Assembly (NCBI GenBank): GCA_021801355.1
Contig: JAJYYB010000010.1
Coordinates: forward strand, 1-64,000
Length of the DNA: 64,000 nucleotides
Origin: Microcaldota archaeon
GTDB taxonomy: Archaea; Micrarchaeota; Micrarchaeia; Micrarchaeales; Micrarchaeaceae
Direction: 5' to 3'
Shown one piece after another: positions 10,591 to 29,870 of the stretch. The notes beneath the pieces are model-generated. The model was not told the origin of the DNA, ran no database searches, and was given only the letters and a program-made list of their open reading frames with translations. Within the stretch, counting starts at the first letter, position 1. Each line of letters starts with the position of its first letter. The position numbers were made by a program, and so were the translations under genes.

Positions 10591-13185
10591 ATGTTTAACA
10601 GGCGTGGACCCAAGGCACAGATAGCGCTCGAGTTCATAATAGTGTATTCTTTCGTCCTTGTGCTATTCCTGATTGTGTTCGGCCTCATAATAAGCCAGAG
10701 GGCGCAGGGCATAACCCAGGAGGAGTACGGGTCGCTGCAGCTCATAGCGCAGAACATCGCCGGGTACGTGGACCAGGCTGCGAGCGCAGGCAACGGCTAC
10801 TCCGCCACTTTGCTACTCCCACCCTCTTCCGGTGCGCTCCCGTACAACATATCTATATCGACGACAGGAATAGTAATAGCCGCCACGCTTTTTAGCGGGC
10901 AACCAATCACTGCAGACGCTTACAGCATTGGCAGGAATCTCAACATACAAGGCACGCTGAACTCCAGCCTCAGCGGCAACGGTATATCAGTGTATTCGAT
11001 ACCGACAGCCTCGGGAGAGATAAGCTTCTACAATTCCAAGGGCGCCATATACATAGACAAACAGCCAGTATCTACTCTCAGCCTGCCGAGCTACATGGCC
11101 GTGAACGTGATAGGGGACCTTAATGCCGCATCGTTCGACGGTGTCAACAGCCATGCGTACGCTTCCAACTCTGTCAACCTGGGGCAGTCATCCACGATAT
11201 CCATGTGGATATACCCGTCAAACTCGCAGGTCGCAGCCTCGAGCAACATGATAAGCAAGGGAACGGGGCAGCCTTTCATAGAGCTATACGGCAATAACGC
11301 TGTGATAGCCGGCGTATCGGGCTCGAGCAACACTGTACCTGCATCGTTTACTCCGGCCTCATGGACCTACATCGCTGCATCATACGTGAACGGCAATATG
11401 ATAAACATTTATACGAACGGTAACTACATAACCAATGTCGTCGCGCCGCTTTCGATAAGCAATACAGTCAATATGATACAGTTGGGCATGGCATTCAACG
11501 GCTCAATAGCTGATGTCCAGCTCTACAATTCGGCGCTGTCAAATAGCGCAATAAGCTATCTTTACGGAGAGGGGCTTGGCGGCGCGCCGCTCAGCGCGAA
11601 TTCTATAGTAGCGTGGTGGCCGATGAACGGCAACGCCCAGGACTATTCAGGAAATGGCAATAACGCAGCGCCATACAACGTGAGCTTCACCAACGTTTTG
11701 CAGCTTGGCATAAAAATCAGGAGCGGACAGGGGACCAACTCGAGCGGAGACCTTTTCGGCACGGTGACCAGCAGCGGCTACGCCTACAGGCTCTCGCCGA
11801 ACGGCAAATCTTTGGCTGCCCATACCAACAGCACAGGAAGCAAGTCGGAATTCGTTACTGGAAATGCAATCGGAATAACAAACGTAACAATTAACGCCTA
11901 CAATTACAACTCTTCTGCCCTAGGAAATCTGGTTGGCTGGTGGCCGATGAATTCAGGCTACGGCAACGTTATATACGATCTGAGCGGTTCATACAACAAC
12001 GCAGCTTTCCAGGCAGGCTCGTGGAGCCCGTTGGCTGCCAACGCAACAGAACTCAATGCCGCATCGTTCAACGGCCGTAACAGCATAATAAGCGGTACAC
12101 TCTCCGTAGGCTCGAGCAACATAACTATATCGGCATGGATAAACGCGAGCGTATACGGTACATATCCACAGAACATAGCTTCCATATCGGCCTCGAACGC
12201 GAATACCGAGGCTATAGGGATAAACGGGATAGGCGGGAACGCGCTTCTGAGCATAAATGGCCAGACTGTGATATCGTCTGGCGCGCTGAACCCGAATGCG
12301 ATTTACATGGTCACAGGGATATGGAACGCGAATAATAGGACGGTGGCTTTATACATAAACGGATCGCTGGCAGGGAGCGCGACGAGCAACGCGCTTTCAA
12401 ACCTTACGGTAGCAGGCTTTAGCATAGGCGGCAATTACCTTGGCATAAACACCTTCAATGGGCTCATATCCAATGTGCAGATTTATGACTCTGCGCTCTC
12501 AGCTGCCCAGGTTTACTCTCTCTACAGGTCAGGATTGACTAATGCCCCATTGGCAGGTGCAGGGCTGTTCGGGTGGTGGCCGCTGGACAACGGCCAGACT
12601 GATTATGCCGATATCAAAGCGGTCCAAACCCAGGGCGGCATCTCATTCAGGCAGATAAGGTACTTGAACAACCAGAGCCGCGTGAACTTATACGTTCCGA
12701 GTTTCAACGGCATAAGCAATGCGATAACGGCAAGCGGATATTCTTCGCTCAGCCAAATGACAATGGCAGTATGGTTCTACTCATCGAATTACACCGGCAA
12801 GACGCAGCTGCTGCTGAACAGCACAACAGGATTGTGGAAGATGGGTTTCAATTCAGCAAACCAGCTTTACTTTGACCCAGGAACGACAGGTGGTGGCGTA
12901 ACGCTGCAAAATACTACAATAAAGCAGAATACCTGGTATCAAATGACGGTAACTGCGCAGACCGGAGGCGACTATACAGCTTACCTTGACGGCGTAAAGG
13001 TTGGTAGAGGGACAATGGGCAGCAGCATAGGGAACAGCGGGGAGATAGTTTTCGGGGCCGGCGGCTTTACCGGCCAGCTTGCAGATGCCCAGATATACGA
13101 CACTGCACTTAGCCTGCCGCAGGCGCAGCAGCTCTACCTGCAGGGGCTGCCCCTTTCCGAGAAATTGAATGTGTCATCGAGTTGA
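10591..13185 (+). CDS. Pilin-like LamG-repeat surface protein
   Basis: About 864 aa from ATG 10591. The N-terminus MFNRRGPKAQIALEFIIVY, then a hydrophobic helix, is an archaeal class III signal peptide: the prepilin-peptidase site is expected at A|Q, with the pilin Glu five residues on. The rest is extracellular, with three LamG/concanavalin-like modules at about residues 185-335, 490-645 and 700-850, each marked by SxxxxSxWxY and an LYxxGL end. WWPMNGN..DYSGNGNNA linkers repeat. It is very large for a pilin, so it could be a tip adhesin or sheath protein. First gene of a four-gene surface operon. Confidence 0.82.
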   Translation: MFNRRGPKAQIALEFIIVYSFVLVLFLIVFGLIISQRAQGITQEEYGSLQLIAQNIAGYVDQAASAGNGYSATLLLPPSSGALPYNISISTTGIVIAATLFSGQPITADAYSIGRNLNIQGTLNSSLSGNGISVYSIPTASGEISFYNSKGAIYIDKQPVSTLSLPSYMAVNVIGDLNAASFDGVNSHAYASNSVNLGQSSTISMWIYPSNSQVAASSNMISKGTGQPFIELYGNNAVIAGVSGSSNTVPASFTPASWTYIAASYVNGNMINIYTNGNYITNVVAPLSISNTVNMIQLGMAFNGSIADVQLYNSALSNSAISYLYGEGLGGAPLSANSIVAWWPMNGNAQDYSGNGNNAAPYNVSFTNVLQLGIKIRSGQGTNSSGDLFGTVTSSGYAYRLSPNGKSLAAHTNSTGSKSEFVTGNAIGITNVTINAYNYNSSALGNLVGWWPMNSGYGNVIYDLSGSYNNAAFQAGSWSPLAANATELNAASFNGRNSIISGTLSVGSSNITISAWINASVYGTYPQNIASISASNANTEAIGINGIGGNALLSINGQTVISSGALNPNAIYMVTGIWNANNRTVALYINGSLAGSATSNALSNLTVAGFSIGGNYLGINTFNGLISNVQIYDSALSAAQVYSLYRSGLTNAPLAGAGLFGWWPLDNGQTDYADIKAVQTQGGISFRQIRYLNNQSRVNLYVPSFNGISNAITASGYSSLSQMTMAVWFYSSNYTGKTQLLLNSTTGLWKMGFNSANQLYFDPGTTGGGVTLQNTTIKQNTWYQMTVTAQTGGDYTAYLDGVKVGRGTMGSSIGNSGEIVFGAGGFTGQLADAQIYDTALSLPQAQQLYLQGLPLSEKLNVSSS

Positions 13186-13189
13186 GATA

Positions 13190-13741
13190 ATGGCAAGAAC
13201 GATCAATTACAAAGGACAGTTCTGGAGTTTCGACATAATATTCGCCATAGTGATATTTGGAGTGGCGATCACCGTGCTGACTTATACGTGGTTCAACATA
13301 AGCACACAGCTCGCCATATCTTACGGAGGATCGGGTTCGCTACTTCAGCTTCAAGCGCAGGCGCTTTCTACCAACCTGCTCTCCACAGGGTCGCCGTCTG
13401 ACTGGCAGAGCCTTGTAGCGATAAACAATGTGTCGTCATGGAGTAGCGTCAGCATAGGCATCGCATCAGCACAGAAAAGCACGGCGATATCGCCGAGCAA
13501 GCTCTATGCATTCATAGACATGGCCAACACCAATTATTCCTCGACCAAGCAGCTCCTCGGTATCGGATACGACTATTACATAACTATAACAGGAGGGTCA
13601 TACAATATAACTATAGGACAGAACCCAAGCGCCCATCAGGCGCTCACGGTTTACGTGGTTACGTCAGGGTCGAGCATAGGCAGTACGCCAGTCATTGTAA
13701 GGACCATGCTTTGGACCAACAAGGCGCTGTCGATAGACTGA
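13190..13741 (+). CDS. Small pilin-like membrane-anchored protein
   Basis: From ATG 13190 the product is 183 aa with an N-terminal hydrophobic helix preceded by YKGQFWSFDIIFAIVIF, then a Ser/Thr/Asn-rich outer part. An in-frame ATG at 13169 overlaps the previous gene. The later start is preferred because it leaves a 4-nt gap like the spacing of the next two genes. The arrangement resembles minor pilins, though the cleavage site is less clear than in the gene before. No recognisable domain beyond the N-terminal helix. Confidence 0.68.
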   Translation: MARTINYKGQFWSFDIIFAIVIFGVAITVLTYTWFNISTQLAISYGGSGSLLQLQAQALSTNLLSTGSPSDWQSLVAINNVSSWSSVSIGIASAQKSTAISPSKLYAFIDMANTNYSSTKQLLGIGYDYYITITGGSYNITIGQNPSAHQALTVYVVTSGSSIGSTPVIVRTMLWTNKALSID

Positions 13742-13745
13742 TAAC

Positions 13746-15980
13746 ATGAGGAGCATTGAAAGACCGTCAAGCAAGGGCTTCCTGTTCAGCCTGGACGCCC
13801 TCTTCGCGCTAATAGTCGCAAGCGCGGCGATATCGATACTTCTCTATGCAGACTTTACCTCGACTGGCAGCTACGTCAGCCCTGCTTCCCAGACATCGTC
13901 GCTTTTAAACGAGCTTGCCACGATGAACGCAGGAGGCGCGGTTAGCATATATGCCTCTGATCTGGAAAACCAGGGCTTGGTAAATCAGGCGGCTTGGCCG
14001 CAGTTCGGAAATAATCAGGGCATGAATTCCAGCACGGCCTACGGTCCGAGCGGTTCGCAGGTGATGTTCACATTCACGTCTAATGAGGTACAGACGCCAC
14101 CTGTTGCGGCGCAGGGCCTTGTGGCATTCGGGGCTGGCGCAAGGCTTTACGCGCTGAACGCAAGCACTGGGAACGTGGTAATAAACATGTCCACGACAAC
14201 CGGGATAAATGCCACCCCGATAATATTCAACAATGAGATCCTATATGCCAATTCGAGCTGCGTCGACGCAGTAAGCACGACGACCAACAGCGTATCGCCA
14301 CCAAAATTTTGGGCATCGCCCATCTGCACCGGAAAGCCGATAAGGTATCCTCTGGCGATTGATGGCGCGTATCTCGGCTTCGCAGCGGGCAACGCGATAT
14401 ATCTGGCCAATCCCGAAACTGGGGCTATGCTGGCGAACACCGTGATGCCTGACATGAGCGCGGGATCGCCTGTTTACATGAATGGCGAGATACTAGATTC
14501 CGTGCGCAATTCTTCATGCCATAACGTACTTGTAGCGCTGGACTACAATGGCACGGCCATGGTGCAGCTTTGGAGCGACACGGTACCATCATGCTCTGCT
14601 ACTAACCCAATGCTCAGCACGCCGGTCAATTTCGGAAGCGACATAGCGGTCACCAACGCGACGTCATTCACAGTCTTCTCGCCTAACGGGGTGGTAGCAT
14701 ACCAGCCCGATACGATCGGCGGAGTAGCCGAAGGGGGCGTAGCAGTGAGCGGAGGCGGATCGCCTTATGCATATGTTGATACTGCCAACGCGATGTACAT
14801 ACTACATCTTTCTGGTAACGTCATCTCAAACCAAGCCGTAGCCAACGTGCTCAGCAACAGTTACAATGACACGCCGTCCCTAGCGCAGTCTACCGGAATC
14901 GTTTATATCCCGGCAGGGCCTTCGCTATACGCTTATTCGGCGGGAAGCGGCGCATACCAGTGGAAGGTCACGCTCCTGCCATCGCAGAACTACAGCCTGT
15001 ATGACGGGGCCGCAGTGGCATTCGGCAATCTCTACGTATCATTTGGGAAGACGCTGTATGCTTTGGGGACATACAAAGCACAACCGAGCCAAAGCATGCT
15101 TGATACGATTGCGAGCATGTACTTGAACGACTACGGAGGTCAGGCGAACCGGCTCATGGAGAAGATAAGCCCGTCATACCTTTACGGCATGCTGATAAAC
15201 GGCCGATATGCGCCTTCGCTCACAATGGCGGAGTTCAATTCTGCAAACAGCATTGTGGAGGTGCCGAATTCCAATTCTATAGAAGTTTCAGGCAAGAATA
15301 TAACTATAACAGGCTGGTTTTATGCCAGGAACTTCCATACGAATCCTGAATTGGATGGATTCATAGCAAGTAAATACGGCGAGTACGCGTTAGGCATAAA
15401 CGCCTCGTCCGCTAGCCTTGCGACCCCATGGGTTTCGATAAACGCAAGCGGGGTCAAGAATTACAGCGTAAGCTATCCGCTGTCTTATGGCACGTGGTAT
15501 TTTGAGGGCGTGTCTTTCAACGGAACGACGTTGAGCATGTATATAAACAGTAATCAGATAAAGAACATTCCTGTAAGCGGTACGCTCGGGACGACTTCTA
15601 TGCCACTTATAATAGGCTGCATGAATGCCGGAGGCTCATGCACGTCAAACACCGTATTGAATGGGAGCTTGGCCGGAGTACAGGTCTACGGGAGCGCGCT
15701 CAATTCGAGCCAGATGGAGACGCTTTACCAGGAGGGCGCCTTCGGAGCGCCTATAAGCGGCAAATCCGATGAGGCATGGTGGCAGCTTGATGGCAGCGCG
15801 AGTGATTACAGCGGCAATGGGGTAAACGGGGTCGCTTACAACATGAGCTACAACTCAACCAATTACGTGCCTTCCAGCCTACTGAACGCTTTCCAGATCA
15901 GCAAGGCGTCATCGCCAGTTTACATATCAACGCATGGAAAGTACAGCATATACAACATAAGCATAGCAGTATGGAAGTGA
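13746..15980 (+). CDS. Membrane-anchored PQQ-type beta-propeller plus LamG protein
   Basis: The 744-aa product has an N-terminal anchor (GFLFSLDALFALIVASAAIS). From about residue 85 to 440 it shows propeller-like repeats with blade motifs such as LVAFGAGARLYALNASTG and GNAIYLANPETG, as in PQQ/quinoprotein-like beta-propellers. A C-terminal LamG-like module (about 490-690) follows, with WWQLDGSASDYSGNG. No catalytic PQQ-dehydrogenase residues were recognised, so the propeller is probably structural or binding. It starts 4 nt after the previous stop and shares the SLDALFAL-type anchor with it. Confidence 0.76.
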   Translation: MRSIERPSSKGFLFSLDALFALIVASAAISILLYADFTSTGSYVSPASQTSSLLNELATMNAGGAVSIYASDLENQGLVNQAAWPQFGNNQGMNSSTAYGPSGSQVMFTFTSNEVQTPPVAAQGLVAFGAGARLYALNASTGNVVINMSTTTGINATPIIFNNEILYANSSCVDAVSTTTNSVSPPKFWASPICTGKPIRYPLAIDGAYLGFAAGNAIYLANPETGAMLANTVMPDMSAGSPVYMNGEILDSVRNSSCHNVLVALDYNGTAMVQLWSDTVPSCSATNPMLSTPVNFGSDIAVTNATSFTVFSPNGVVAYQPDTIGGVAEGGVAVSGGGSPYAYVDTANAMYILHLSGNVISNQAVANVLSNSYNDTPSLAQSTGIVYIPAGPSLYAYSAGSGAYQWKVTLLPSQNYSLYDGAAVAFGNLYVSFGKTLYALGTYKAQPSQSMLDTIASMYLNDYGGQANRLMEKISPSYLYGMLINGRYAPSLTMAEFNSANSIVEVPNSNSIEVSGKNITITGWFYARNFHTNPELDGFIASKYGEYALGINASSASLATPWVSINASGVKNYSVSYPLSYGTWYFEGVSFNGTTLSMYINSNQIKNIPVSGTLGTTSMPLIIGCMNAGGSCTSNTVLNGSLAGVQVYGSALNSSQMETLYQEGAFGAPISGKSDEAWWQLDGSASDYSGNGVNGVAYNMSYNSTNYVPSSLLNAFQISKASSPVYISTHGKYSIYNISIAVWK

Positions 15981-15984
15981 TTAT

Positions 15985-18612
15985 ATGGCAAGTACAAGCA
16001 AGGGTATACTGTTCACGCTCCTGACCATACTGTTATTCATACTCATGCTCGGCACTCTGATAACGTACGTCATACTGAATATAAACTCTGAGAATCTTGC
16101 CTCGAGCAGCGCTCTGGGCATAGGCACACAATCGGTAATAACGGCTGCATCTGGAAGCGCACATGACTTCCTGCAGGGAAGCCTTTCGGATGCGCTTCAC
16201 TCCCTGATAGCTTATGAAAGCACGCCGTCTCTGAGGCACGACCGCTTCGTGAACAATACGGCAGGCACGCTGGAAAGTATGATTTACAACGGAACCGCGT
16301 TTGGAATGAGGATACAGAACATGAGCGTAACGCTATCAAATTACACATCACAGATCGAAGGGCTTGCAGAGCAGCAGGACATACGGCTGACCATCGAGAA
16401 TGCGAGCGTAAGCGTTTTCCAGACGACACCGTACAGCATAAATGCAAGTTACACTGCGCTTGACGTGATAAACACTACTACTGGAATAATATACTACCCT
16501 GTAAACGCGACAGCGGGGGTGCAGCTGAACGGCACTGTGAGCCTCGCCAGCGCAGAGGAGGCCAATCCTACTGTAATGACGTTCAGCAATTATACCGCTA
16601 CCAATCTGGTCGGCGGCGTGCGGGCCAATAACGGAAGCCAGTCACCATTCATGTTCGTCTATGGTACGATGGTAGTCATACCGTCAGGTACGCCAACATG
16701 CAGTGCGGTGCCGCAGAAATTCAGGAACGGCGATTTCATACTCGCTGCTGCTAACAGCGTCGACATAAACCAGAGCATATGTGGCATGGGAGGGCTGGTC
16801 ACCGCAAGTTTAAACCAGACAGGCTTCCCGCCACTCGGGCCTTATCTAGCGTATGGTAACACAGGCATATTCAACTCTATATCGAACGGCACGGCGCTCC
16901 TGCTTGACGGGAACGCACTTGAGCTGCTTAACATATCAGCCGCACAGTACTACGGGGTGCAAAAAGGCGACTACTTTGCATCCAAATTCGTCCCGTCATA
17001 CCTTGACAGAGCGGATGGCCACCTCGCTGACAAGTCACCTTACGGGATTTTCTCGCTGGGCGGATTAAGCACTCTGGTGGCAAGCTTTGCGGACAACGGA
17101 AACATTATAGTAGCCAATTCTAATACGCTTAACCCAGGATCAAATACGATGAGCGCTTTCGCGTGGGTTTACTTAAACACTACAACATCTACTGCGAACA
17201 TAATACAGAAACCGGGAGCTTATGGCATCGGAATAGGCACTGGCGGTGCGCAAAAGTTCCAGCCGGTAGGTTCAGTCGGCTCTAACGGAATCTGCAATTC
17301 GCCGCCCTTCGTTCTCTCGCAGAATGCATGGCATTTCATCGGATTCACGTACAATGGCACATCCATAAACGATTATGTAGATGGCACAGCTTACTGCAGC
17401 GTGGCTCTCGAAGGCAACGTGCCATCCAATTCTAACAGCGTCATTATAGGAGGGTCATTGAATAGTTCTATAGCTGAAGTGCAGGTATACAATACAAGTT
17501 TGTCACCACAGCAAGTTGCGCGGCTCTATTCTTACGGGCTCAGCAGCATACCCATATCGGGAGCCGGCCTGCTTCTATGGATGCCGCTCAATGGCAACAG
17601 CAATGACTATAGTGGATTCAGCTACAACATCATAGCGACCAACACGATATACAGCAACCCTGTTGGTTATTTCGGAGACCCTGGGCTCGGTGAATTGCCT
17701 GGTTACGCGAGCACTTACGTGATACAGGGGCTGCTCAATTGCATGAACATACAGCAATGCAGCAATAGTACGTTGTCACACGTATACCTTGGAAATTCGC
17801 AGTCAGGGACTTCAAGCAATACGGTGGCTAACGAGGCCGCCGCCTTTGGGCTGGGCGTCGCTGGGCTACCGAACGCGCTAAGGCTGAATGGAACGGGCAA
17901 TGCTAACGCAGGGAACGGAGGGTATATGATACCGGATAACGGCTTCGCATTCATGGCCAACAGCGCAGGAGGCTTCACAATATCCTTATGGGTTTACCCG
18001 ATGAGCGGGAACGGCGTAATAGTAGATCAGGGCACCAGTCAGGTGATAGGTTCAGGGAACCACGAGTCCATAATAGAGCTGATAAATGGCAATGTTTGGA
18101 TGCGCGGTAGCGGAGGCAACTGTAGCGATATAGGGACGATACAGCTAGACCATTGGAGCAACATAATAATGACCGGAACGCTAGGTCAGGCATCTGGATT
18201 TTTTTATACGGGAATAATAAATGGCAACGTGATAGTGGCCCATAGAAGAGGCGCGCGTGGCACGACCGGATCGTCACCGCTATACGGTTTGGGGATGGCT
18301 GACCTGAACCACTGCAGCGGCGGTACAGGCGATTGGTTCAATGGCATGATGTCTGATTACCAGATTTACAACACCACGCTTACCACTGGACAGGCACAGC
18401 AGCTTTACGTTAATGGTACAGTTCCTGGTGAATCTAACTCTCTGGTTGCGAGCTGGGCGTTGTACGGCGGCCTGAACGGCCTTTTCAATGAGACGCCGGA
18501 GTCGCAGAATGGGAACACCGGCTATCTCTGGTATTTCAATGTAACAAGCGGAGTATGCACGAATTCGAACGTAATAGTAGGAGCATGCAGGGCCTCTTAC
18601 AGCCACCCATGA
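15985..18612 (+). CDS. Membrane-anchored double LamG surface protein
   Basis: The 875-aa product has an N-terminal hydrophobic helix (GILFTLLTILLFILMLGTLITYVI) and a long extracellular part. A Ser/Thr/Asn-rich region comes first. LamG-like modules follow at about residues 370-510 (SAFAWVYLNTTTSTAN) and 640-800 (GGFTISLWVYPMSGNG), joined by the LLLWMPLNGNSNDYSGF linker seen in its neighbours. Several Cys residues in the last third may form disulfides. Last gene of the surface operon, with spacings of 4 nt between genes. Probable partner of the pilin-like first gene. Confidence 0.78.
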   Translation: MASTSKGILFTLLTILLFILMLGTLITYVILNINSENLASSSALGIGTQSVITAASGSAHDFLQGSLSDALHSLIAYESTPSLRHDRFVNNTAGTLESMIYNGTAFGMRIQNMSVTLSNYTSQIEGLAEQQDIRLTIENASVSVFQTTPYSINASYTALDVINTTTGIIYYPVNATAGVQLNGTVSLASAEEANPTVMTFSNYTATNLVGGVRANNGSQSPFMFVYGTMVVIPSGTPTCSAVPQKFRNGDFILAAANSVDINQSICGMGGLVTASLNQTGFPPLGPYLAYGNTGIFNSISNGTALLLDGNALELLNISAAQYYGVQKGDYFASKFVPSYLDRADGHLADKSPYGIFSLGGLSTLVASFADNGNIIVANSNTLNPGSNTMSAFAWVYLNTTTSTANIIQKPGAYGIGIGTGGAQKFQPVGSVGSNGICNSPPFVLSQNAWHFIGFTYNGTSINDYVDGTAYCSVALEGNVPSNSNSVIIGGSLNSSIAEVQVYNTSLSPQQVARLYSYGLSSIPISGAGLLLWMPLNGNSNDYSGFSYNIIATNTIYSNPVGYFGDPGLGELPGYASTYVIQGLLNCMNIQQCSNSTLSHVYLGNSQSGTSSNTVANEAAAFGLGVAGLPNALRLNGTGNANAGNGGYMIPDNGFAFMANSAGGFTISLWVYPMSGNGVIVDQGTSQVIGSGNHESIIELINGNVWMRGSGGNCSDIGTIQLDHWSNIIMTGTLGQASGFFYTGIINGNVIVAHRRGARGTTGSSPLYGLGMADLNHCSGGTGDWFNGMMSDYQIYNTTLTTGQAQQLYVNGTVPGESNSLVASWALYGGLNGLFNETPESQNGNTGYLWYFNVTSGVCTNSNVIVGACRASYSHP

Positions 18613-18699
18613 ACGCAAATCAATGTGCCTAGCCGGCATGGCAATAATTAAAGCTGTATTTGCAGAAGATTATGCGTTGTGTTTCATTCGTGTGATGCC

Positions 18700-19476
18700 A
18701 TGATACTTGTAACTAACGATGACGGGATTTACAGCAAGGGAATAAAGATACTCTATGAAGCAGCGGTAGAGGTTTACGGAAAGAGCGAAGTTAATGTCGT
18801 GGCGCCAACCGGGCCGCGCAGTGCCAGCGGGATGAGCCTTACGTTCCACAAGCCGCTCAGGGCGGACAGGGTTGTCATGCCCGGGATAGACGGCTATGCA
18901 GTTTCAGGCACTCCTGCGGACTGCGTTTACATAGCCCATTACAAACTCTTCAAAGGGAAGAGGATAGACCTCATATTATCAGGGATAAACAAGGGCACGA
19001 ATGCAGGCATGGAAGCCATAGAGTCCTCCGGCACGGTATCAGCTGTGAAATTTGGTGCCGTATGTAGAATAAAAGGCATAGCCTTTTCGCTTGAGCTAGA
19101 TGAACATGCTAGGCCAAAGATGTTCACGAACACGAAGGCGCAAATAATCAAGCTGCTGACAGCGATAAAAAGGGATGGCATGCCTAAGAGCGCGGACATG
19201 CTCAACGTCAACATCCCGAACAGCGTAAACGGCAAGACGAAGGTCAGGCTATGCACGATAGAGGGCTCTCTTTTCAGCAAGTTCGTAGTGCGGAAGAGCG
19301 ACCCGCGCGGGGATTCCTACTATTGGCTATGGAGTTACAGGAAGAAGAAGCTCAACAGGGGCAGTGACTGTTACGCCATCTTTATTGAGAGGGCGATATC
19401 TGTAACACCACTCTCGCTCTCAGCACCAGCGGAGAAGCAGATGGATGAAGTCCGAAAGGTGCTGAAAGCTTATTAA
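18700..19476 (+). CDS. surE: 5'/3'-nucleotidase SurE
   Basis: A metal-dependent phosphatase that removes phosphate from nucleoside monophosphates. ATG 18700 gives MILVTNDDGIYSKGI, the canonical SurE start with the metal-binding Asp pair. The upstream in-frame start at 18679 only adds residues not seen in the family. Other motifs are GPRSASGMSLT, SGTPADCVYIA and SGINKGTNAG. At 258 aa it is full length. It stands alone between the surface operon and the convergent secretion operon. Confidence 0.94.
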   Translation: MILVTNDDGIYSKGIKILYEAAVEVYGKSEVNVVAPTGPRSASGMSLTFHKPLRADRVVMPGIDGYAVSGTPADCVYIAHYKLFKGKRIDLILSGINKGTNAGMEAIESSGTVSAVKFGAVCRIKGIAFSLELDEHARPKMFTNTKAQIIKLLTAIKRDGMPKSADMLNVNIPNSVNGKTKVRLCTIEGSLFSKFVVRKSDPRGDSYYWLWSYRKKKLNRGSDCYAIFIERAISVTPLSLSAPAEKQMDEVRKVLKAY

Positions 19477-19524
19477 GTTCCCCTTCTCCAAATCAGACTC
19501 TTTTGCAGTTAGCTTCGCAGCTGC

Positions 19525-20538
19525 TCATACGCCTGTGCCGCTGATCCCGGACAGGAAACCACCAACAAACGCCTGCACTATCACGAATATTACGAAGCCC
19601 ACTATCACGAAGAGCGGAACGTACCTTATGCCCTTCACTGCCGAACCGGAATTTATAGCTGAAACTATTATGCTAGCGAATGCCGTTATGATTATTATCG
19701 CCGCGATCGAGAAGTCGCTATATGCCTGGGGTGATATCTGCGGCGGACTCGGCTTGAGGAATGATACGCCTGTTGTCGGCAGGCCTGAAGGATTCGTCTG
19801 CAGTATGCCGCCCCATATCTTGTCTGTCACGACTATCATTTGGCTGGTCAACCCGTAAAGCGCAGGTGCGGCGATAAGTCCTGCAAACACTATGAATATG
19901 CTGTACATGAAAAGCTGGCCCGATACTTCCTTCTGTATGAGCTGCTGGTTCCTCATCTCCTTTGCCAGCTGCTCCAGCAGGTCTGCCATTGCCCCCCCGT
20001 ACCTGACGGCCTCGAGCATCATCCTTACTGCGTGCGTCAGTTGGTATGAGCGGTATTTTGCCGCGAGGCTCTTCAGCGAGCTCTCGAAGGTGTCACCGCT
20101 GAAGACTCTCCTGCTCATCTCCTTTATGTCATCAGCGAAGAAGCCGAACTCTGGCCTTGCGCCCAGCAACATCGCTCTTTCTAGTGCTATTCCGCTCCTC
20201 AGGTTTGCAGCTGCTATCTGGAAGTAATCCGGCAGCATTGCTTCCATTTTTGTCTTCCTGTCATCTATCTGGTACTCCATTATGGCGTAGATGCACACGA
20301 CGTACACCACTGCACCGAGTATCGCTACCAGTATCGAGAGCAGTATGAATGCGCCGAGGAGCTCGAGCAGGGTGAAGAATATTATCATGCATGCTATGGA
20401 GCCGAAGACCATAATGCCAATCAGCTTGTTCACTGACATCTTCATTCCGGACAGGTCAAGCTCCCGTGAAATGCCCCTTATCACGTTTCTTGGGACGAAC
20501 ATGTCGAACCTTATGTCTGAAAGCGCCATTTTGATCAC
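19525..20538 (-). CDS. tadC: T2SSF/TadC-like inner-membrane platform protein
   Basis: The 337-aa protein has a membrane helix pair near the N-terminus, a cytoplasmic four-helix domain typical of T2SSF (AAANLRSGIALERAM..FGFFADDIKEM), and three more hydrophobic helices toward the C-terminus. The order matches archaeal ArlJ/TadC platform proteins that anchor type IV filaments. It overlaps the upstream paralogue by 4 nt (translational coupling). Last gene of the five-gene machinery operon. Confidence 0.82.
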   Translation of the reverse strand: MIKMALSDIRFDMFVPRNVIRGISRELDLSGMKMSVNKLIGIMVFGSIACMIIFFTLLELLGAFILLSILVAILGAVVYVVCIYAIMEYQIDDRKTKMEAMLPDYFQIAAANLRSGIALERAMLLGARPEFGFFADDIKEMSRRVFSGDTFESSLKSLAAKYRSYQLTHAVRMMLEAVRYGGAMADLLEQLAKEMRNQQLIQKEVSGQLFMYSIFIVFAGLIAAPALYGLTSQMIVVTDKIWGGILQTNPSGLPTTGVSFLKPSPPQISPQAYSDFSIAAIIIITAFASIIVSAINSGSAVKGIRYVPLFVIVGFVIFVIVQAFVGGFLSGISGTGV

Positions 20539-21572
20539 ATGGAGAACGAAGGCCTGGAAGACCTTATCATCTCAAGGAATATCAGCTGTATGAAAGCTAT
20601 GAATACTATGATAAAGAAGAGCACAGTGTCATCTATTGTTATTATCGATATGAAAGTCGTGAGTATTATTGCTACTGCGACGAACATGCTTGGCAGTATG
20701 ACACCGAACAGCATGTAGAACATTGCTAGCGCATTGAGCCTCTGGCCGTACCTCCTAAGCGCGATTACGCGTTCCTGCGAGAGCTGGTCTATTATGCTCT
20801 GCAGCGCGGCTATCACATCCGCGCCTGCCTTTATGCTGACAGATGCCTGCAGCATGAGCCTCCTGAATGAAATGCTGCCTGACTCATCTATCTGCTGGTC
20901 TATCGCCTGCTCCAGCGGCGTGCCCAACTGCACACGCTCTACGATTCTTGCGAACTGCCTGCTGGCCTGCCCATAGCCGGTGCTCACTGACGCTATTGCA
21001 TTGAAAAGCGGCATTCCGGACCTTAATGATATTATCATGTCCCTTGCAGCGAATAGTATGTCACGCTCGACCATCTTGGCGGCGTTCTTGCTCTTCTGCG
21101 CTGGGAAGCTAAGGAACATGTTGAAGAATACCTGGAAGCATGCGAACCCTATCACGACTGCGAAGAGCAGGCTTTCTAATAGGGTGAGCCCGGCCTTGGA
21201 AAGAAGTATGAATAGGAAAACAGACATCATTGCTGCAATCATGAGCGATGTTATTAGCATTCTCTGGACGAACTCGTAGAGGCTTTCCTTGAAGCCCCCA
21301 ATCCTTAGCGACTGCTCAAGCCCCTTTCTCTTGAGCCCTATGCTCTGGACGTAAAGGCGCCACCTTGTCGGCTTTAAGTCTTCAGGAGCCTTTCTAGCGC
21401 CTTTCGCTGCGCCAGGTGTGCCTGGCTTGCCCATGTTGACATTGGATAGTATATTGACATTAGGCTGCTGCCGTCCCTTTAGGAAGCCGGTTACCTTACC
21501 TCCAGCCGACTGACCTGATGGCCTCTTAGCGGCCTGGGCAGTATCCTTTTTGTCCTTTTTGAAAAGTGCCAT
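20535..21572 (-). CDS. tadB: T2SSF/TadB-like inner-membrane platform protein
   Basis: A 345-aa paralogue of the next gene, with a basic Gly/Lys-rich N-terminal region (about 1-65), two membrane helices (about 105-155), a T2SSF core (MIISLRSGMPLFNAIASVS) and C-terminal helices near 280-335. Two tandem platform genes are typical of Tad-type systems, whereas archaella usually have one longer ArlJ. Only 1 nt separates it from the 242-aa protein gene upstream. Confidence 0.82.
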   Translation of the reverse strand: MALFKKDKKDTAQAAKRPSGQSAGGKVTGFLKGRQQPNVNILSNVNMGKPGTPGAAKGARKAPEDLKPTRWRLYVQSIGLKRKGLEQSLRIGGFKESLYEFVQRMLITSLMIAAMMSVFLFILLSKAGLTLLESLLFAVVIGFACFQVFFNMFLSFPAQKSKNAAKMVERDILFAARDMIISLRSGMPLFNAIASVSTGYGQASRQFARIVERVQLGTPLEQAIDQQIDESGSISFRRLMLQASVSIKAGADVIAALQSIIDQLSQERVIALRRYGQRLNALAMFYMLFGVILPSMFVAVAIILTTFISIITIDDTVLFFIIVFIAFIQLIFLEMIRSSRPSFSM

Positions 21573-21573
21573 A

Positions 21574-22302
21574 TCATTTACCGCCCTTGTTCAGCATAAC
21601 TATAGCCTCTGCTATCTTCTTGTCCCTCATGGCCAACAGCACCTTGTCTGCAGAGCCAGCCACCTTGCCGGATTTCTTCTGCTCTTTCCTCTCTGTCTCA
21701 GCGACCTGTTTAAGCCCATACACCTCCTCGACTATTATCTTGAAGTGCTCCTTGTCGAACGCCTTCTGCCGCAGGCCTTCTATTATGTGATCCAGCTCGT
21801 TAACCTGCTCCGAGAGCTGCAGACCAGGAAGCACAAGGTTGCTCACATCGATCTTCATCTTCGGCTGCCCGATGTTCTTTATCCTAGACAATTTGGATCC
21901 ATTCTCCTCGCTCTCGTCAGGCTTCTGCATGGCCTCCTGGAGGCCAGGATACTCCGCTATCGTAACTTGAGGGGTGGGTTGTTTGCCCTGTAGTGCCGAT
22001 TCGGTAGGCTGCTGCGCTCTTGCACTGAATGGCACCGCTGTGATCGGGCCATCCTTCTTCTCCTTTGCTGCCTCCTTCACGCTCCTCTTTGTCTCTACGT
22101 CATCTATAACCTTAAGCAGCTCGGCATATGATCTGGAAGTCGGCTTGGGTGCTACGGCGAATACTGAGGAGATGTTAACATATACTGTCTCAGGCCTGGT
22201 AACGCTCTTCTCGACATCATCAATTTTCTTTGCAATGCTAGCGTAAGTAACTCCTGGTTGCTGGGCTGAATTCTGCCTTGGCTGATCCGCCATCGTAATC
22301 AC
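21574..22302 (-). CDS. Uncharacterised cytoplasmic protein of the secretion operon
   Basis: A 242-aa hydrophilic protein of unknown family with no membrane helix or signal peptide. The N-terminal half has low-complexity segments repeating TYASIAKKIDDVE / SYAELLKVIDDVE, a short internal duplication. The C-terminal half is charged and helical (LQLSEQVNELDHIIEGL). GTG 22302 overlaps the ATPase stop, while ATG 22293 (MADQ) is the alternative start. Its fixed place between ATPase and platform genes suggests an adaptor in the filament motor. That is inference. Confidence 0.7.
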   Translation of the reverse strand: MITMADQPRQNSAQQPGVTYASIAKKIDDVEKSVTRPETVYVNISSVFAVAPKPTSRSYAELLKVIDDVETKRSVKEAAKEKKDGPITAVPFSARAQQPTESALQGKQPTPQVTIAEYPGLQEAMQKPDESEENGSKLSRIKNIGQPKMKIDVSNLVLPGLQLSEQVNELDHIIEGLRQKAFDKEHFKIIVEEVYGLKQVAETERKEQKKSGKVAGSADKVLLAMRDKKIAEAIVMLNKGGK

Positions 22303-23804
22303 TTTAATAGGCCCTTTGTGAATTCTACGTCGTTCTTGGCCATGTCGATTATCCTCTCGGGATTCCTGTAATAATTTGCAACTACGATACCTGCATCGTC
22401 GACATCGAATATCTTGCTCTTAGTCATCCATGACAGGATCTTATTCTTCTCCTTTATGTCATCGCCTATCTCCTTCCTGGTCATTCCTGTATAGAGCGAA
22501 AGCGTGTCCACCAAGTTGGTCATTTCGGATATTATGGAGAATGTGTCGTCCCTGCTGTTCCATTTGTACAGAACGTTGGCGTCCCCGGTCCTTAGCACCT
22601 CTGCCATCTCCAGGATCCTCCTTATGCCCCTGGTCCTGTGCCTGAAATTGACTATTATGCCGCCTATCCCGTTCATCATTATCTTCGGTATGTTTATAGG
22701 GGGGTTCGTCATCCTTATTATCGTGTCTTGCGCGTTGTCGGCGTGTATTGTACCGTAAACCGCGTGGCCGGTGTGTATGGCCTCGAAAAGCGTCTCCGCG
22801 TCCTTGCCGGTCCTCACCTCTCCGACCAGCATTATATCGGGCCTCTGCCTTAGAGCGTTTATCATCAGGTCGTAAAGCGTGACTCCGCCCTTGCCTTCTG
22901 GGTTGGGCTGCCTGGTTATCATCGGCACCCATTGCAGGAAAGCAGGCAGGGCGAGCTCCTTCGTCTCCTCGACGGTTATTATCCTCCTGTTCGCCTGGAA
23001 GAATATTCCTGCCGCGTTGAGGAAACTTGTCTTTCCGCTCGCGGTGCCTCCCGACATGAGAAGGCTGACCTCGCTCTGTATGCACAGCCATATGAGCGAA
23101 GCTATCTCCGGGCTTATAGTCTGGTTTTCTATCATCATCGGCATGGTCCACGGGTTCTTGGAAAACTTTCTTATGGTCAAAGTGTTGCCCACCTGCGAGA
23201 TCGGGAAAAGCGTGGCATTGACTCTCGAACCGTCTGGGAGCTCGGCATCCATGAGGGGCGTAAGGTTGCTTATCTGTTTGCCTACCCTCCTGCCTATGAA
23301 CGATGACTGCTCGTATATGCCCTCATCGGTCTCGGACTTTACGTTTGTCTTGCACCAGCCCAACTTCTTGTGGAAAACCCATGCTGGACCTCTCGAGCCG
23401 TTTACTGCTATCTCCTCGAGCTTGTCATCCGCTATCAGCGCTTCAAGATCACCTAGCAGAAGCATCATGTTTGTGATGTATGCGATGAGCGTAGATTTTG
23501 TGTCCGCACTCGTGCCGGGCAGGTACTTTTCTATTAGAAGAAGGCTGGCCTCCCTGTATCTGTCGTTTATCTTGTTTACATACTCCCTACTTCCAATCTG
23601 TGACGGATCGAAAGGCACCATCCCTGTAAGCTCGGCCCTGAGCGAGTTTAGTAGCAGCTTTGTAGCAAGCCCTATCCCGGGGAAGGTGACAGCGTAGAAA
23701 GGCACGAAGTCTGTAGTCTGGCTTATCTTTATCTGGACCTTCATGCCATGTACGTTAAGCTCGTACTGCTCCAGTATCTTTTCTTCCGCTTTGTCATCAG
23801 CCAT
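22299..23804 (-). CDS. tadA: Type II/IV secretion ATPase (TadA/ArlI/VirB11 family)
   Basis: The 501-aa hexameric ATPase powers assembly of type IV filaments. Walker A is GGTASGKT (252-259), followed by the Asp box, Walker B-type IMLVGEVRTGKDAET and the His box GHAVYGTIHADNA. The N-terminal domain includes DKLEEIAVNG and DAELPDGSRVNATL, usual for this family. It overlaps the next gene and starts 8 nt after the coiled-coil gene. No prepilin peptidase is encoded in this window, although the pilin-like proteins here would need one. Confidence 0.93.
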   Translation of the reverse strand: MADDKAEEKILEQYELNVHGMKVQIKISQTTDFVPFYAVTFPGIGLATKLLLNSLRAELTGMVPFDPSQIGSREYVNKINDRYREASLLLIEKYLPGTSADTKSTLIAYITNMMLLLGDLEALIADDKLEEIAVNGSRGPAWVFHKKLGWCKTNVKSETDEGIYEQSSFIGRRVGKQISNLTPLMDAELPDGSRVNATLFPISQVGNTLTIRKFSKNPWTMPMMIENQTISPEIASLIWLCIQSEVSLLMSGGTASGKTSFLNAAGIFFQANRRIITVEETKELALPAFLQWVPMITRQPNPEGKGGVTLYDLMINALRQRPDIMLVGEVRTGKDAETLFEAIHTGHAVYGTIHADNAQDTIIRMTNPPINIPKIMMNGIGGIIVNFRHRTRGIRRILEMAEVLRTGDANVLYKWNSRDDTFSIISEMTNLVDTLSLYTGMTRKEIGDDIKEKNKILSWMTKSKIFDVDDAGIVVANYYRNPERIIDMAKNDVEFTKGLLK

Positions 23805-23812
23805 CCTACCAA

Positions 23813-25969
23813 CTAGTGCTTGACCACACTATTGCCGGCTTCATGCCCTTTTTTCTTTGCATCATCGGGCTTAGGCTTCTTCTGCTCAGTGCCTGTTATA
23901 GTCATCAGTTTGACTGCAGAGTCGCCCACATTGCCTCTTATGCCAGCAATCTTAAGGTCCGTTGTAGCCGTCTTTGCCATTATGTCATTCAGTATCTCCA
24001 ACTGCCTTTCCATTGAGACGTTGGACGACCTCTTCAGCGAGGCCACCTGCTTCATCATCTGGTTCAGGTCAGCTCTTACCGCGGCAAGCTCGCCCTTCGT
24101 ATCTTGTATCCCAACCCTGACATCACTTATAGCACTCTGTATCTTCAGCGGCTCACCCATCTTGGCCTTTATGTCGTTCAGGGTTTCATAGATTGAGGAC
24201 GAGTCGGCCTTTATTAGCATCTCACCTTTCGTTATATCGTTTATTACCACATTGTATTTGTCATCGAATTTAGACTTCATCTCCGAGAGCGCACTTATTG
24301 CATTCTGCTGGTTCTTCCTGAACTCCTCGAGCTTGCGAGTGATGTCTTTGGTGGCACCTGCGCTCTTTGAGAGCTCCTTCATGCTGGCCCTTATCTCATC
24401 GTTGTAGACCCTGACCTGCTGATCCATCTGCTTCTTCACCTCATCCATCTGCTGGGCGATACCTTTCATCTGGGCAGTGAAGTTGGCCTTTATCTGGTTT
24501 AGGGAAGCCTCTTTGTCCTTGCTTACCTGATCCAACGACCTCCTTATGTCCTGCATTTTCTTTAGACCTTGATTTATCTGCGCAATCTTTTCCTGCACGC
24601 TGGATGCTGCACTTTCTGATGCGTAGGAATCAAGCTTGGATATTATGTCATTTAGCTTCTTGTTTGATTCATCGAATTGCTTATCCATGTTTGCACGCAA
24701 CTGCTCTGCCTTTTTGCTGTTCTCATCTATCGCCTTGTATGCGGCCTCTACGGCAGCCATATGCTGGCTTGCAGATTGGGGCAGCCCACTTTTTATCGTG
24801 TTCTCCATTTCAGATATCGAAGCTGCGAGTTTTGTGATCAACGGGCCGAATGAGTCCAGCTCTGCTTTCTGCTCCGCCAGCTGCGCGGATAACTTTGTCA
24901 TGTCTTCGGTTGCCTTCATCAGCTGGGTCTTCGTCTGGCTGAGCGACTGACCCATCTTTATAGGATCTGGCAACTGCGCTTTCGTCTCTTCCAGGCTGGC
25001 ATCCAACTTACTTGATTCTTCCTGCAGTCTTGCCTGTGCCCTCCTGAGCTCCTCGTTTACCTTCTCATACTCACGAGCGAATGCGTACCTCGCGTCTATA
25101 AGAGACTTCCTTATGCGTTCCTGCTCCTTCTTGAGACCTTCGACTTCCTTCGCAGTGGACCTGACAGCCGCGGCGTTCTCCGAAACTTGGCTGACGCCCG
25201 TCTTTATCTCATTGGAGTATGCCTTCATCTGGATTTCGATGTCCTTGGCAGCCTTGTCGACCTTCGCATTGAGGTCCCTGAGCTCGGCTTCCAAGCTCTG
25301 CCTCATCTCATGGAATGCAGCCTCCTTGTTCTTGTTTATCTCCTCTACCATGCCGCGTATCTCGTTTGCCTTGTTGGCGGATTCGCGCATCTTCGCTATG
25401 TTCTGGTCGGCGGCCTCGACCGGCTTCTGCGACATCATGTACTCGAGCTTTGGAATCATATCGCTTATTTTCTTGTTGAGATTCTCGAACTCCTCGAGCG
25501 TGCTTTTCCTCATGAGCTGCGCCCTGGAATTCTGGCTCTTTATCGTCTCGTAGGTCTTGGAAATCTCGTTTATGTTCTCCTTCACGCTTGGTGGCAGGCT
25601 TTTCATCAGCAACGTTTCCATGTTAGCGGTCGTGATGGAAAGCTTTTCTAGCATGCTCGCAAATTTCTCCAGCTCGGCTTCCTGGCGGCCAAGTTCGCGC
25701 TCTAGCTGCGCCTCGCTCACGGCGACCTTATTTGAGAGCAGCGTGGTATGGTCTGTGGTGATGGCAATCGGCTCTATGAACATCCTGCCCGTAACATATG
25801 TTATCCTAACGAGGCCGTTATCCTCAAGTATCTTGGCCCATTTCTCAACCACTCTCGGATCAGCGGCGAGAGAAGTTGAAAGCGCAGTTAGCTCTGACCT
25901 GCCGGTTTGCTTGATAATGTTCATTAGGGAATCTATTGTAGTAACGGCCGCTCCATTGTTTTCTGCCAT
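23813..25969 (-). CDS. Long coiled-coil protein with N-terminal winged helix
   Basis: A 718-aa protein and first gene of the secretion operon. Residues about 10-65 (TIDSLMNIIKQTGRSELTAL..) read as a winged helix-turn-helix. Nearly all the rest, to about residue 690, is predicted coiled coil rich in Glu, Lys, Gln and Ser, with internal similarity between two halves (NIAKMRESANKANEIRGMVEE against KIAQINQGLKKMQDIRRSL). No membrane segment. It may be a cytoplasmic scaffold below the motor, or link surface-structure expression to DNA. No function is known to me. Confidence 0.74.
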   Translation of the reverse strand: MAENNGAAVTTIDSLMNIIKQTGRSELTALSTSLAADPRVVEKWAKILEDNGLVRITYVTGRMFIEPIAITTDHTTLLSNKVAVSEAQLERELGRQEAELEKFASMLEKLSITTANMETLLMKSLPPSVKENINEISKTYETIKSQNSRAQLMRKSTLEEFENLNKKISDMIPKLEYMMSQKPVEAADQNIAKMRESANKANEIRGMVEEINKNKEAAFHEMRQSLEAELRDLNAKVDKAAKDIEIQMKAYSNEIKTGVSQVSENAAAVRSTAKEVEGLKKEQERIRKSLIDARYAFAREYEKVNEELRRAQARLQEESSKLDASLEETKAQLPDPIKMGQSLSQTKTQLMKATEDMTKLSAQLAEQKAELDSFGPLITKLAASISEMENTIKSGLPQSASQHMAAVEAAYKAIDENSKKAEQLRANMDKQFDESNKKLNDIISKLDSYASESAASSVQEKIAQINQGLKKMQDIRRSLDQVSKDKEASLNQIKANFTAQMKGIAQQMDEVKKQMDQQVRVYNDEIRASMKELSKSAGATKDITRKLEEFRKNQQNAISALSEMKSKFDDKYNVVINDITKGEMLIKADSSSIYETLNDIKAKMGEPLKIQSAISDVRVGIQDTKGELAAVRADLNQMMKQVASLKRSSNVSMERQLEILNDIMAKTATTDLKIAGIRGNVGDSAVKLMTITGTEQKKPKPDDAKKKGHEAGNSVVKH

Positions 25970-26126: not shown

Positions 26127-26876
26127 CTATAGGATTCCGCGGTAGAACATCGAGAAAAGTAGCGCTATGAAAAACACGTAGATCAGGTCGAAAAGCGGTA
26201 TTATCTGCGGTATTATGCCTGTCAGTAAAAGCAGGCCGATTATGGCTGCAAGCATGACTATGTAAACCGGCGCGTTCCATGCGAGGACCTTGCTGCCGTC
26301 AAGCGGCGTTATGGGCAGCATGTTGAAGAACGCGAGCCACAGGCTTATGAATACCGTGAAAGCTATCAGCAAATTGATATAACTAGATGGAGACGAAAGC
26401 TGGATTGCTATTGAGGTGAAAGCAGAATGCGGATTCAAGATGTAGAATATCGCAAGGAACACTGCGAACACAGCGAAGTTGGTGAGCGGCCCTGCCAGCG
26501 ACACTATGCCGTTCTCCTTCCTTGAGAAGCTATTTGTATAGATCATCGTAGCGCCCGGTATACCAAGGAGGAATCCTACGGCTCCTGTAGCAAGGGTTAT
26601 TATGAGACCGTTGTATGAAGTCCTGAAGCCAGCTATGGCGCCGTAATATTGGGCTACGAATTTGTGCATCAGCTCGTGCAGTATGAAAGACAGGCTGACT
26701 GCTACAACTGCTATTGGAATGAAAAGCACGAATTTCGATAGGAATGCGCCTGGATTTGATATTAGACCAAAAATACCATCTGAAAGGACCAGCGAAAATG
26801 CTATTATCAGAGCGGCGTCTGCGATTATTATGTCTTTTATCTCCTGGTTGAAGTGCGTGTTTTCCCTCATTGGCAT
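26127..26876 (-). CDS. Site-2 protease family (M50) membrane metalloprotease
   Basis: The 249-aa protein has about six transmembrane segments. The zinc-binding HELMH is at residues 67-71 inside the second hydrophobic region. The third ligand motif LDGSKVLAW is at about residue 197, preceded by FFNMLPITP, as in the S2P/M50B group. Such enzymes cut transmembrane regulators or signal-peptide remnants. ATG 26876 gives MPMREN. ATG 26870 is also possible. No PDZ or CBS domain. Confidence 0.88.
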   Translation of the reverse strand: MPMRENTHFNQEIKDIIIADAALIIAFSLVLSDGIFGLISNPGAFLSKFVLFIPIAVVAVSLSFILHELMHKFVAQYYGAIAGFRTSYNGLIITLATGAVGFLLGIPGATMIYTNSFSRKENGIVSLAGPLTNFAVFAVFLAIFYILNPHSAFTSIAIQLSSPSSYINLLIAFTVFISLWLAFFNMLPITPLDGSKVLAWNAPVYIVMLAAIIGLLLLTGIIPQIIPLFDLIYVFFIALLFSMFYRGIL

Positions 26877-27033: not shown

Positions 27034-27050
27034 TAGCAAATAGGTAGCGT

Positions 27051-27123
27051 AGCTCCATCGTCTAGTGGTCAAGGACAGCGGCCTCTGGAGCCGCAAACTC
27101 CAGTTCGAATCTGGGTGGAGCTA
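27051..27123 (+). tRNA. tRNA-Gln (anticodon CTG)
   Basis: The 73-nt cloverleaf is complete: a perfect 7-bp acceptor stem AGCTCCA/TGGAGCT, D arm GTC..GAC, anticodon stem GCGGC/GCCGC around loop CTCTGGA (anticodon CTG, 27084-27086), T arm TCCAG-TTCGAAT-CTGGG, and discriminator A. CCA is not encoded. The 3' part from 27066 is repeated at 31298-31358, so the gene is the attachment site of an integrated element. The functional copy remains whole at the left end. Confidence 0.93.
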
Positions 27124-27126
27124 TTA
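27066..27126 (+). repeat. attL: left 61-nt direct repeat (inside tRNA-Gln)
   Basis: Covers the tRNA from the D loop through the discriminator plus TTA. It differs from the right copy at one base (A at 27077, G at 31309). After integration into a tRNA 3' end, this copy completes the functional tRNA. Confidence 0.9.
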
Positions 27127-27239
27127 GCGATTTTCGACGTCAGTGCGAAAGTTCGAATCCGCTCGGCAACGGCAATGCCTCAATCCTGCCATGGTTCGAA
27201 CCGGAGAGAAAATCCGAACTAGCAGAAGTAAAGCAAAAG

Positions 27240-28013
27240 TTGGAGGCCTTGCTGCCCAGGCTTGGCAAGACCGACATAAAGATGCTGCGTTCCATAATCT
27301 ACCAGCATTGGCAGAAGCGATTCAGGAAGAGCCAACCGCCAAAGTATGGTAGCCTGGACAAAGGATTTACAGAACAAGAGTTGCAGGCGTTCTTCGCTGC
27401 AATAGACAACGAAAAGTTTGGCCTGTTGTTTGGTTATCAAGCACGGCTTGGGCTAAGGATAGGCGAAGCCGTAAGGATCAACATAAAGGACATAAACTTC
27501 GAATCAAGGGAACCGCTGATCCAGACTGAGAAGGCGAGCACTCTTGATACCCTGATTATACCGCTGCCGCTCTTCAGGCAGACAGTAGCCTTCATAAAGG
27601 CGTATCCGAGCCAGATAGAGAAGGCAGGCGGCTACCTATTCTTCAAGGAACCGAACGCGCGCAAGCGGCCGGAGCAGTATCTGGATGCCAACTACGCCAG
27701 GAACATGTTCTGCAGCTACATAAGGAAGGCCGGGCTGGACATGGTGTATGCGGAGAGCGATGAACCTGCGGGCAAACAGGGCAGGAAGCTTCACAGGCTG
27801 ACAACGCACAGCTTGAGGCACTACGCGATAACGAGCTTTGCGAAGCAAACGAACGGTAACGTGGTGCTCACGAGCAGGTTCGCGCGGCATGCAGACTCAA
27901 GCAACACCATGATATACATAAGCACTGACAAGCAGGAGCTCTACAAGGAAATAGACAACGCCTTCTCTTTGAACGAAGCACAAAGGCTTAAGGTGGTAAT
28001 AAGTGGTAGATGA
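27240..28013 (+). CDS. Tyrosine recombinase, C-terminal part of a split integrase
   Basis: The 257 aa from TTG 27240 contain the catalytic domain. The first Arg is in GLRIGEAVRI, then HSLRHYAITSF supplies the His-x-x-Arg pair, and the Tyr nucleophile is probably in NTMIYISTDK. The frame is open upstream through the whole att repeat with a protein-like ILPWFEPERKSELAEVKQ segment, so the true domain begins before 27240. The missing N-terminus is encoded at 31220-31369. It faces away from the tRNA, next to attL. Expression in the integrated state would rely on internal starts. Confidence 0.87.
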   Translation: MEALLPRLGKTDIKMLRSIIYQHWQKRFRKSQPPKYGSLDKGFTEQELQAFFAAIDNEKFGLLFGYQARLGLRIGEAVRINIKDINFESREPLIQTEKASTLDTLIIPLPLFRQTVAFIKAYPSQIEKAGGYLFFKEPNARKRPEQYLDANYARNMFCSYIRKAGLDMVYAESDEPAGKQGRKLHRLTTHSLRHYAITSFAKQTNGNVVLTSRFARHADSSNTMIYISTDKQELYKEIDNAFSLNEAQRLKVVISGR

Positions 28014-28025
28014 TTCGTTCCTTAT

Positions 28026-28333: not shown

Positions 28334-28353
28334 GCTAACTGTCCTGTTGCCGG

Positions 28354-29861: not shown

Positions 29862-29870
29862 TTGGTCTCA

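Follow-up and report, generated by a model that had tools for sequence, protein, structure and literature searches.

Four pilin-like proteins, three with LamG or propeller modules, beside a Tad-like motor in a Micrarchaeales archaeon: probable tip adhesins of a type IV pilus

What would an archaeon with a small genome do with several very large pilin-like proteins encoded next to a pilus motor? The window (the whole 64,000-nucleotide stretch analysed here, from a genome, G000, of 1.07 Mb in 21 contigs and 96% complete) carries four genes at 10591-18612 (+), each with a class III (prepilin) N-terminus, and, facing them at 25969-19525 (-), a five-gene operon that includes a T2SSE ATPase and two T2SSF platform proteins. 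A sequence-only reading of this DNA had pointed out the two blocks and proposed filaments or tips made of giant LamG proteins, perhaps for contact with a host cell. Its description of four genes with pilin-type or pilin-like N-termini beside a five-gene motor was borne out by the open reading frames, their leaders and the Pfam matches. We propose that the locus probably codes for an Epd/Tad-type archaeal type IV pilus, in which the quartet would supply minor pilins at the tip that carry LamG and propeller adhesins, and the quartet system is most likely an elaborate form of a known sticky appendage, not a new machine. The status of the organism as an episymbiont rests on its relatives; the window carries no sign of it.

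Layout of the locus

The genes considered here are listed below, with a slash marking the predicted cleavage site.

10591..13185 (+): gene 1, 864 aa; class III pilin moiety at about 1-165 (KA/QIALEF, Glu at +5), followed by three LamG modules
13190..13741 (+): gene 2, 183 aa, with the ORF opening at 13169; minor-pilin-like (KG/QFWSFD, Asp at +6), no module
13746..15980 (+): gene 3, 744 aa; pilin-like N-terminus (KG/FLFSLD, Asp at +6), propeller-like insert at about 90-440, LamG at 501-656, conserved C-terminus
15985..18612 (+): gene 4, 875 aa; pilin-like moiety at about 1-175 (KG/ILFTLL, no acidic residue before +17), surface region with two LamG matches; candidate cap
18679..19476 (+): SurE nucleotidase, between the blocks
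19525..20538 (-): TadC-like platform protein, T2SSF (41/41 loci)
20535..21572 (-): TadB-like platform protein, T2SSF (41/41 loci)
21574..22302 (-): 242-aa conserved protein of the motor operon (39/41 loci)
22299..23804 (-): assembly ATPase, T2SSE
23813..25969 (-): winged-helix and coiled-coil protein, first gene of the motor operon (39/41 loci)
26127..26876 (-): M50 family membrane peptidase, often adjoining the motor (22/41 loci); membership uncertain
39991..41625 (-): class III pilin-like gene, 544 aa (KA before QSAMEYLMTYGW), one of about 34 scattered in the genome

The SurE gene, which lies between the blocks in 2 of the 41 loci and only within the window's genus, is probably not part of the pilus system.

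Prepilin-type signal sequences

Each quartet ORF (864, 183/190, 744 and 875 aa) opens with a short charged leader, followed by a single hydrophobic segment. Cleavage in archaea needs G, A or S at -1 and a charged residue at -2, and EppA substrates carry Q at +1 and E at +5 (reviewed in PMC4371748). Nearly all quartet orthologues have K or R at the predicted -2 position, and G or A stands at -1 in 31 of 35 orthologues of gene 2, 33 of 35 of gene 3 and 37 of 38 of gene 4. For gene 1, this position is G, A or S in 28/39 and Leu in 8/39, and the latter sequences, like the four gene 2 orthologues (of 35) with Leu, do not fit the G/A/S rule. All 39 gene 1 orthologues have Q at +1 and an acidic residue at +5, and in genes 2 and 3 the first acidic residue is an Asp at +6 (35/35 for each); the acidic residue was built into the search pattern for genes 1-3, so that these counts measure fit to the pattern and not an unbiased frequency. 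The pattern fitted all sequences of genes 1 and 2, and all of gene 3 except one. Gene 2 mostly fails a strict FlaFind-like pattern at +2. No acidic residue precedes +17 in any of the 38 gene 4 orthologues.

A single N-terminal hydrophobic segment would also suit ordinary anchored surface proteins whose position by the motor is incidental, and LamG and propeller modules are common on surface proteins. The fixed prepilin-type motifs argue against this explanation. Lipid anchoring was rejected as an account of the N-termini: genes 1, 3 and 4 have no cysteine within the first 60 residues, gene 1 has none at all, and the one in gene 2 precedes the hydrophobic segment and lies upstream of the likely start, so that no lipobox cysteine was found. 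The possibility raised in the sequence-only reading that these are lipid-anchored proteins is thus not supported for genes 1, 3 and 4.

Conservation across relatives

To follow the two blocks, 146 genomes of the phylum were searched with the ATPase, gene 2 and the N-terminal region of gene 4 as queries; the order is taken as families f1 and f2 (76 genomes). Gene 2 was present in 64 of the 76, and the orthologous ATPase was missing from one of those 64, an 83%-complete draft; surface genes without a motor, the finding that would have told against a link, are therefore not the pattern seen. Both blocks share a contig in 45 genomes; in 43 of these they lie 3.2-11.2 kb from each other and are always convergent, and the exceptions are separated by 46 kb (G015) and 329 kb (G016). 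This co-occurrence across relatives, a check proposed in the sequence-only reading, goes beyond chance and is hard to reconcile with an incidental position of the quartet. The motor can occur without a recognisable quartet, since gene 2 went undetected in 9 of 71 motor genomes, including all three members of one genus.

Product sizes are rather constant across 41 loci: gene 1 mostly encodes 880-1150 aa, gene 2 about 175-210, gene 3 about 600-790 and gene 4 about 840-1180, though shorter and longer versions also occur. In several relatives, a class III pilin gene separates gene 4 from the motor.

Most of the more distant relatives sampled (L080-L086 and L089-L090) have the motor and no quartet within 20 kb, and at five of these loci (L081, L082, L084, L085 and L086) one small class III pilin (GQAAMEYLMTYGWALLV or close to it) adjoins TadC in place of the quartet.

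Adhesive modules and pilin-only homologues

Laminin_G_3 (Pfam, cut-off 27.6 bits) matched genes 1, 3 and 4 at 157, 54 and 79 bits and was found in 39/39, 34/36 and 37/38 of their orthologues, respectively. The propeller of gene 3 reached 22 bits in the window, below the cut-off; a PQQ-type propeller was found in 25 of 36 gene 3 orthologues (best 1.5e-18) and is absent from some. Three of the 38 gene 4 orthologues contain DUF2341, and one contains Kelch. No Pfam match was obtained for gene 2, and a profile search against the PDB gave no convincing match, so that this protein has no detectable solved relative. The earlier assignment of LamG or propeller modules to the quartet as a whole accordingly holds for genes 1, 3 and 4 (LamG in all three, with the propeller in gene 3) and fails for gene 2.

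Outside the order, the four genes keep their order and can encode small pilin-like proteins. At L088 the quartet (133/178/134/272 aa) lies directly upstream of the ATPase and platform genes on the same strand, and at L072 a quartet of 186/213/172/690 aa is convergent with the motor, its 186-aa gene 1 homologue lacking modules. The window's own family includes one quartet of 893/177/168/277 aa (L075). Gene 4 is split at L071: one gene there encodes a protein of 215 aa that aligns with positions 1-174 of the gene 4 profile (E 1e-22), and the product of the following gene, a separate secreted protein (1121 aa), aligns with positions 233-368 (E 1e-17). The gene 3 homologue carries a strong propeller at L071 and a VWA domain at L087. 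Because small homologues exist outside the order and gene 4 is split at L071, the giants are, as judged from these comparisons, modular minor pilins, that is, pilins fused with exchangeable adhesive parts; the hallmark of such proteins, a pilin moiety fused to LamG, PQQ or VWA modules with pilin-only homologues alongside, is present. The grafting of LamG most likely predates the split between f1 and f2, since both families have it. With small pilin-like homologues beside the motor in distant relatives, in addition to the synteny, the motifs, the missing lipobox and the cysteine-free gene 1, we find it hardly credible that the quartet consists of surface adhesins unlinked to the motor.

A shared origin of the C-termini of genes 2 and 3 was not supported (hhalign probability 0.6%). 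Matches to the NCBIfam model 'TafC' were set aside, being far below the cut-off and on the LamG part, and no paper on a pilus TafC was found in the literature.

Motor and prepilin peptidase

The motor, described as Tad-like in the sequence-only reading, was confirmed in its ATPase and two platform proteins by Pfam (T2SSE, E 9e-33; T2SSF, E 2e-15 and 3e-15), and the combination of one ATPase with two platform proteins recurs at 41 of 41 loci. The TadC-like protein had no match in a profile search against the PDB. The genome holds one T2SSF pair. A search for the prepilin peptidase, also suggested beforehand, returned a single Peptidase_A24 gene (PF01478, over the cut-off) at 16492-16827 of contig C11, a different contig from the motor; no EppA peptidase is encoded in the locus, the only Peptidase_A24 match being the one on that other contig, and no MinD/FleN-like match was found among the locus proteins scanned. 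Class III signals, a prepilin peptidase in the genome, and an ATPase with platform proteins, three genetic hallmarks of a type IV filament, are present.

The ATPase also bears on the question of what the motor builds. Its nearest solved relatives are archaeal GspE (2oap), FlaI and CpaF. The product might, as in the Sulfolobus Bas system, be a short structure at the cell surface, or a piston for secretion, that binds polymers close to the membrane and makes no long pilus. Such a system would be marked by class III signals on large ligand-binding proteins (PMC2910488), and the ATPase does match the BasE model (2e-35). The FlaI model fits far better (8e-75), however, and abundant class III pilins with Q at +1 and E at +5 suit a pilus. 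We therefore regard a bindosome or pseudopilus of this type as unlikely.

The genome also encodes a second, lone T2SSE ATPase (438 aa) with no platform genes nearby, at L002, 1330-2646, and a similar ATPase lies beside the relocated quartet at L075.

Class III genes elsewhere in the genome

The Pfam model Class_IIIsignal is too short to detect class III genes in six frames, and a custom profile (A7) of class III pilin N-termini was used for the genome count. It returned about 34 further class III genes, scattered over many contigs of the 1.07-Mb genome, most of them with KA, RA, KG or RG before Q at +1 and an acidic residue at +5. By size, seven encode 170-193 aa, 21 encode 323-945 aa, and six encode <100 aa, these last being mostly cut by contig ends. 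Over 108 genomes of the order the class III count ranges from 4 to 53 (median 12). A scan of 27 class III proteins found DUF2341 in five, Flg_new_2 repeats in three, pentapeptide repeats in one and LamG in one, and no substrate-binding domain.

Stand-alone major pilins serve in Methanococcus and Haloferax (PMC4858521, PMC4371748), and the seven small class III pilins are for that reason natural candidates for the shaft. A shaft polymerised from the giant LamG proteins, together with other giant class III proteins, would draw on the canonical class III signal of gene 1, constant in its orthologues as given above, and on the presence in the genome of at least 20 other class III proteins of 323-945 aa. 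Pilins of ordinary size are encoded in the same genome, however, gene 4 is without the acidic residue expected to pair with a subunit above it, and the quartet consists of four distinct subunits in a constant combination, not of copies of a single one. The filaments of giant LamG proteins imagined in the sequence-only reading are thus not supported, given the ordinary-size class III pilins elsewhere and the minor-pilin hallmarks of the quartet, and we judge them very unlikely.

Class III genes are cut by contig ends at L106, L118, L119, L121 and L127 and at the ends of L105 and L115, and pairs of them are 85-99% identical at the nucleotide level along 160-1000 bases that start close to the N-terminus. 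Recent duplication or recombination, plus assembly breakage, is the likely background of these pairs. A more speculative proposal, to which we give rather little weight, is that one motor with a stock of about 34 class III proteins, mostly giant and several with near-identical N-termini, lets the archaeon change the adhesive surface of its pilus by swapping or recombining subunits, perhaps tracking its partner cells.

Structure prediction

AlphaFold was run with alignments of three sequences and gave weak models for gene 2 (pLDDT 45) and for the N-terminal region of gene 4 (pLDDT 39). In both low-confidence models a long helix at the N-terminus leads into antiparallel strands, as in a pilin. 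Foldseek searches of these weak models against the PDB returned no pilin and nothing at E ≤ 0.001. Because the pLDDT is low and Foldseek gave no match, we place no weight on the predicted folds.

Proposed mechanism and comparison with known systems

Under the type IV pilus reading that we prefer, the five-gene operon would be the motor, made up of the ATPase, a pair of platform proteins and two accessory proteins in the cytoplasm. The four prepilins would be inserted by Sec, and their motifs suggest that a single peptidase encoded elsewhere cuts each of them just before the hydrophobic helix. The four helices would then bundle at the membrane; the resulting complex would initiate the filament and remain at its tip, and the motor would push this complex out by adding shaft pilins, presumably the stand-alone class III pilins encoded elsewhere. 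The LamG, propeller and other modules on genes 1, 3 and 4 would in this way be exposed at the tip as adhesins. Gene 4 is the likely cap by analogy with the bacterial HIJK complex, since it alone in the quartet lacks an acidic residue near the N-terminus, as does the K subunit.

In the bacterial four-minor-pilin tip complex (T4aP/T2SS), K has no Glu5 and sits on top (PMC9934059). The quartet resembles it in having four different co-encoded minor pilins, of which gene 4, like K, is bulky and lacks the N-terminal acidic residue; the likeness is one of set and motif, not of detected homology in sequence or structure to any of H, I, J and K. Modular pilins with PF13385 are established in bacteria (PMC8179133). 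Streptococcus sanguinis PilB and PilC likewise combine a pilin moiety with an adhesive module and have a proposed tip location (PMC8179133, PMC9934059); PilC carries a concanavalin A-like lectin and PilB a VWA module, and PF13385 is among the common modules. That system is a bacterial T4aP with two modular pilins (PilC, 52.8 kDa), unlike the three of 744-875 aa here, and its ligand binding has been shown by experiment. Myxococcus Kil (Tad) pili are likewise built by a Tad-type motor and carry minor pilins at the tip whose variable domains are exposed for contact with cells, but they have three-subunit tips, four paralogous sets and a demonstrated killing function (PMC12075869).

According to Makarova et al., archaeal clade 1 pili combine a pair of TadC proteins with several minor pilins and with large DUF2341 adhesins. 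The present locus shares with clade 1/Epd pili (PMC4858521, PMC4371748) one ATPase, two TadC-type platform proteins, linked minor pilins, scattered major pilins and large DUF2341 proteins, the last in the few gene 4 orthologues noted above. Epd/Tad-type loci often, though not invariably, include an EppA peptidase and a MinD/FleN gene. The present one differs in that its peptidase is encoded outside the locus, that no MinD/FleN gene was recognised within it, and that the adhesive modules are fused to pilins here, whereas there they are on separate proteins.

The closest published case is Mia14 ('Ca. Mancarchaeum acidiphilum'), of the same lineage, for which the parts of the account consulted here report a single FlaK-like peptidase, LamG proteins associated with the pilus loci, and a pair of pilus systems, one of them assigned to the Epd/Tad (clade 1) group (PMC5498576). 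Mia14 almost certainly carries the same motor and quartet, although in this genome (G010) genes 3 and 4 appear as a single 1220-aa ORF, unlike in the window. Its eight-gene locus MIA14_0170-0177 may, going by gene number, be the present one. The same parts of that account do not describe a four-gene minor-pilin set, order-wide conservation, module grafting or class III expansion (PMC5498576). With Mia14 pilus loci, clade 1 pili and bacterial PF13385 modular pilins published, the kind of system is already known. The term 'unusual' applied earlier is therefore only partly right, given the reports on PF13385 pilins in bacteria (PMC8179133, PMC9934059) and on LamG at Mia14 pilus loci (PMC5498576). 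The portions of the literature on such pili that we consulted contain no account of the fixed four-gene set, of its synteny throughout the order, of the pattern of acidic residues or of the split homologue.

These results narrow the question of how DPANN archaea attach to other cells to a conserved set of four proteins with clear predictions on which proteins are processed, which one is the cap and which modules bind. The predictions are testable because Mia14 has been grown in co-culture. The results also suggest that modular tip pilins, studied mainly in bacteria so far, are a fixed trait of a whole archaeal order.

Neighbouring genes

A helicase gene at 8324-10459 (-) adjoins gene 1, and a similar protein ('LKGRLPxEIxESL...TPPQ') flanks gene 1 in several relatives. 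Two KaiC/RAD55-like ATPase genes lie at 871-2340 (-), some 8 kb away from the quartet; a role in pilus regulation has been proposed for KaiC-type proteins (PMC9563170). On the other side of the motor, the stretch at 27050-31148 looks like an integrated element: after a tRNA-Gln come an integrase gene of phage type (27240-28013) and, in tandem, a pair of genes of lower GC (29181-29861 and 29862-31148) that encode related secreted proteins.
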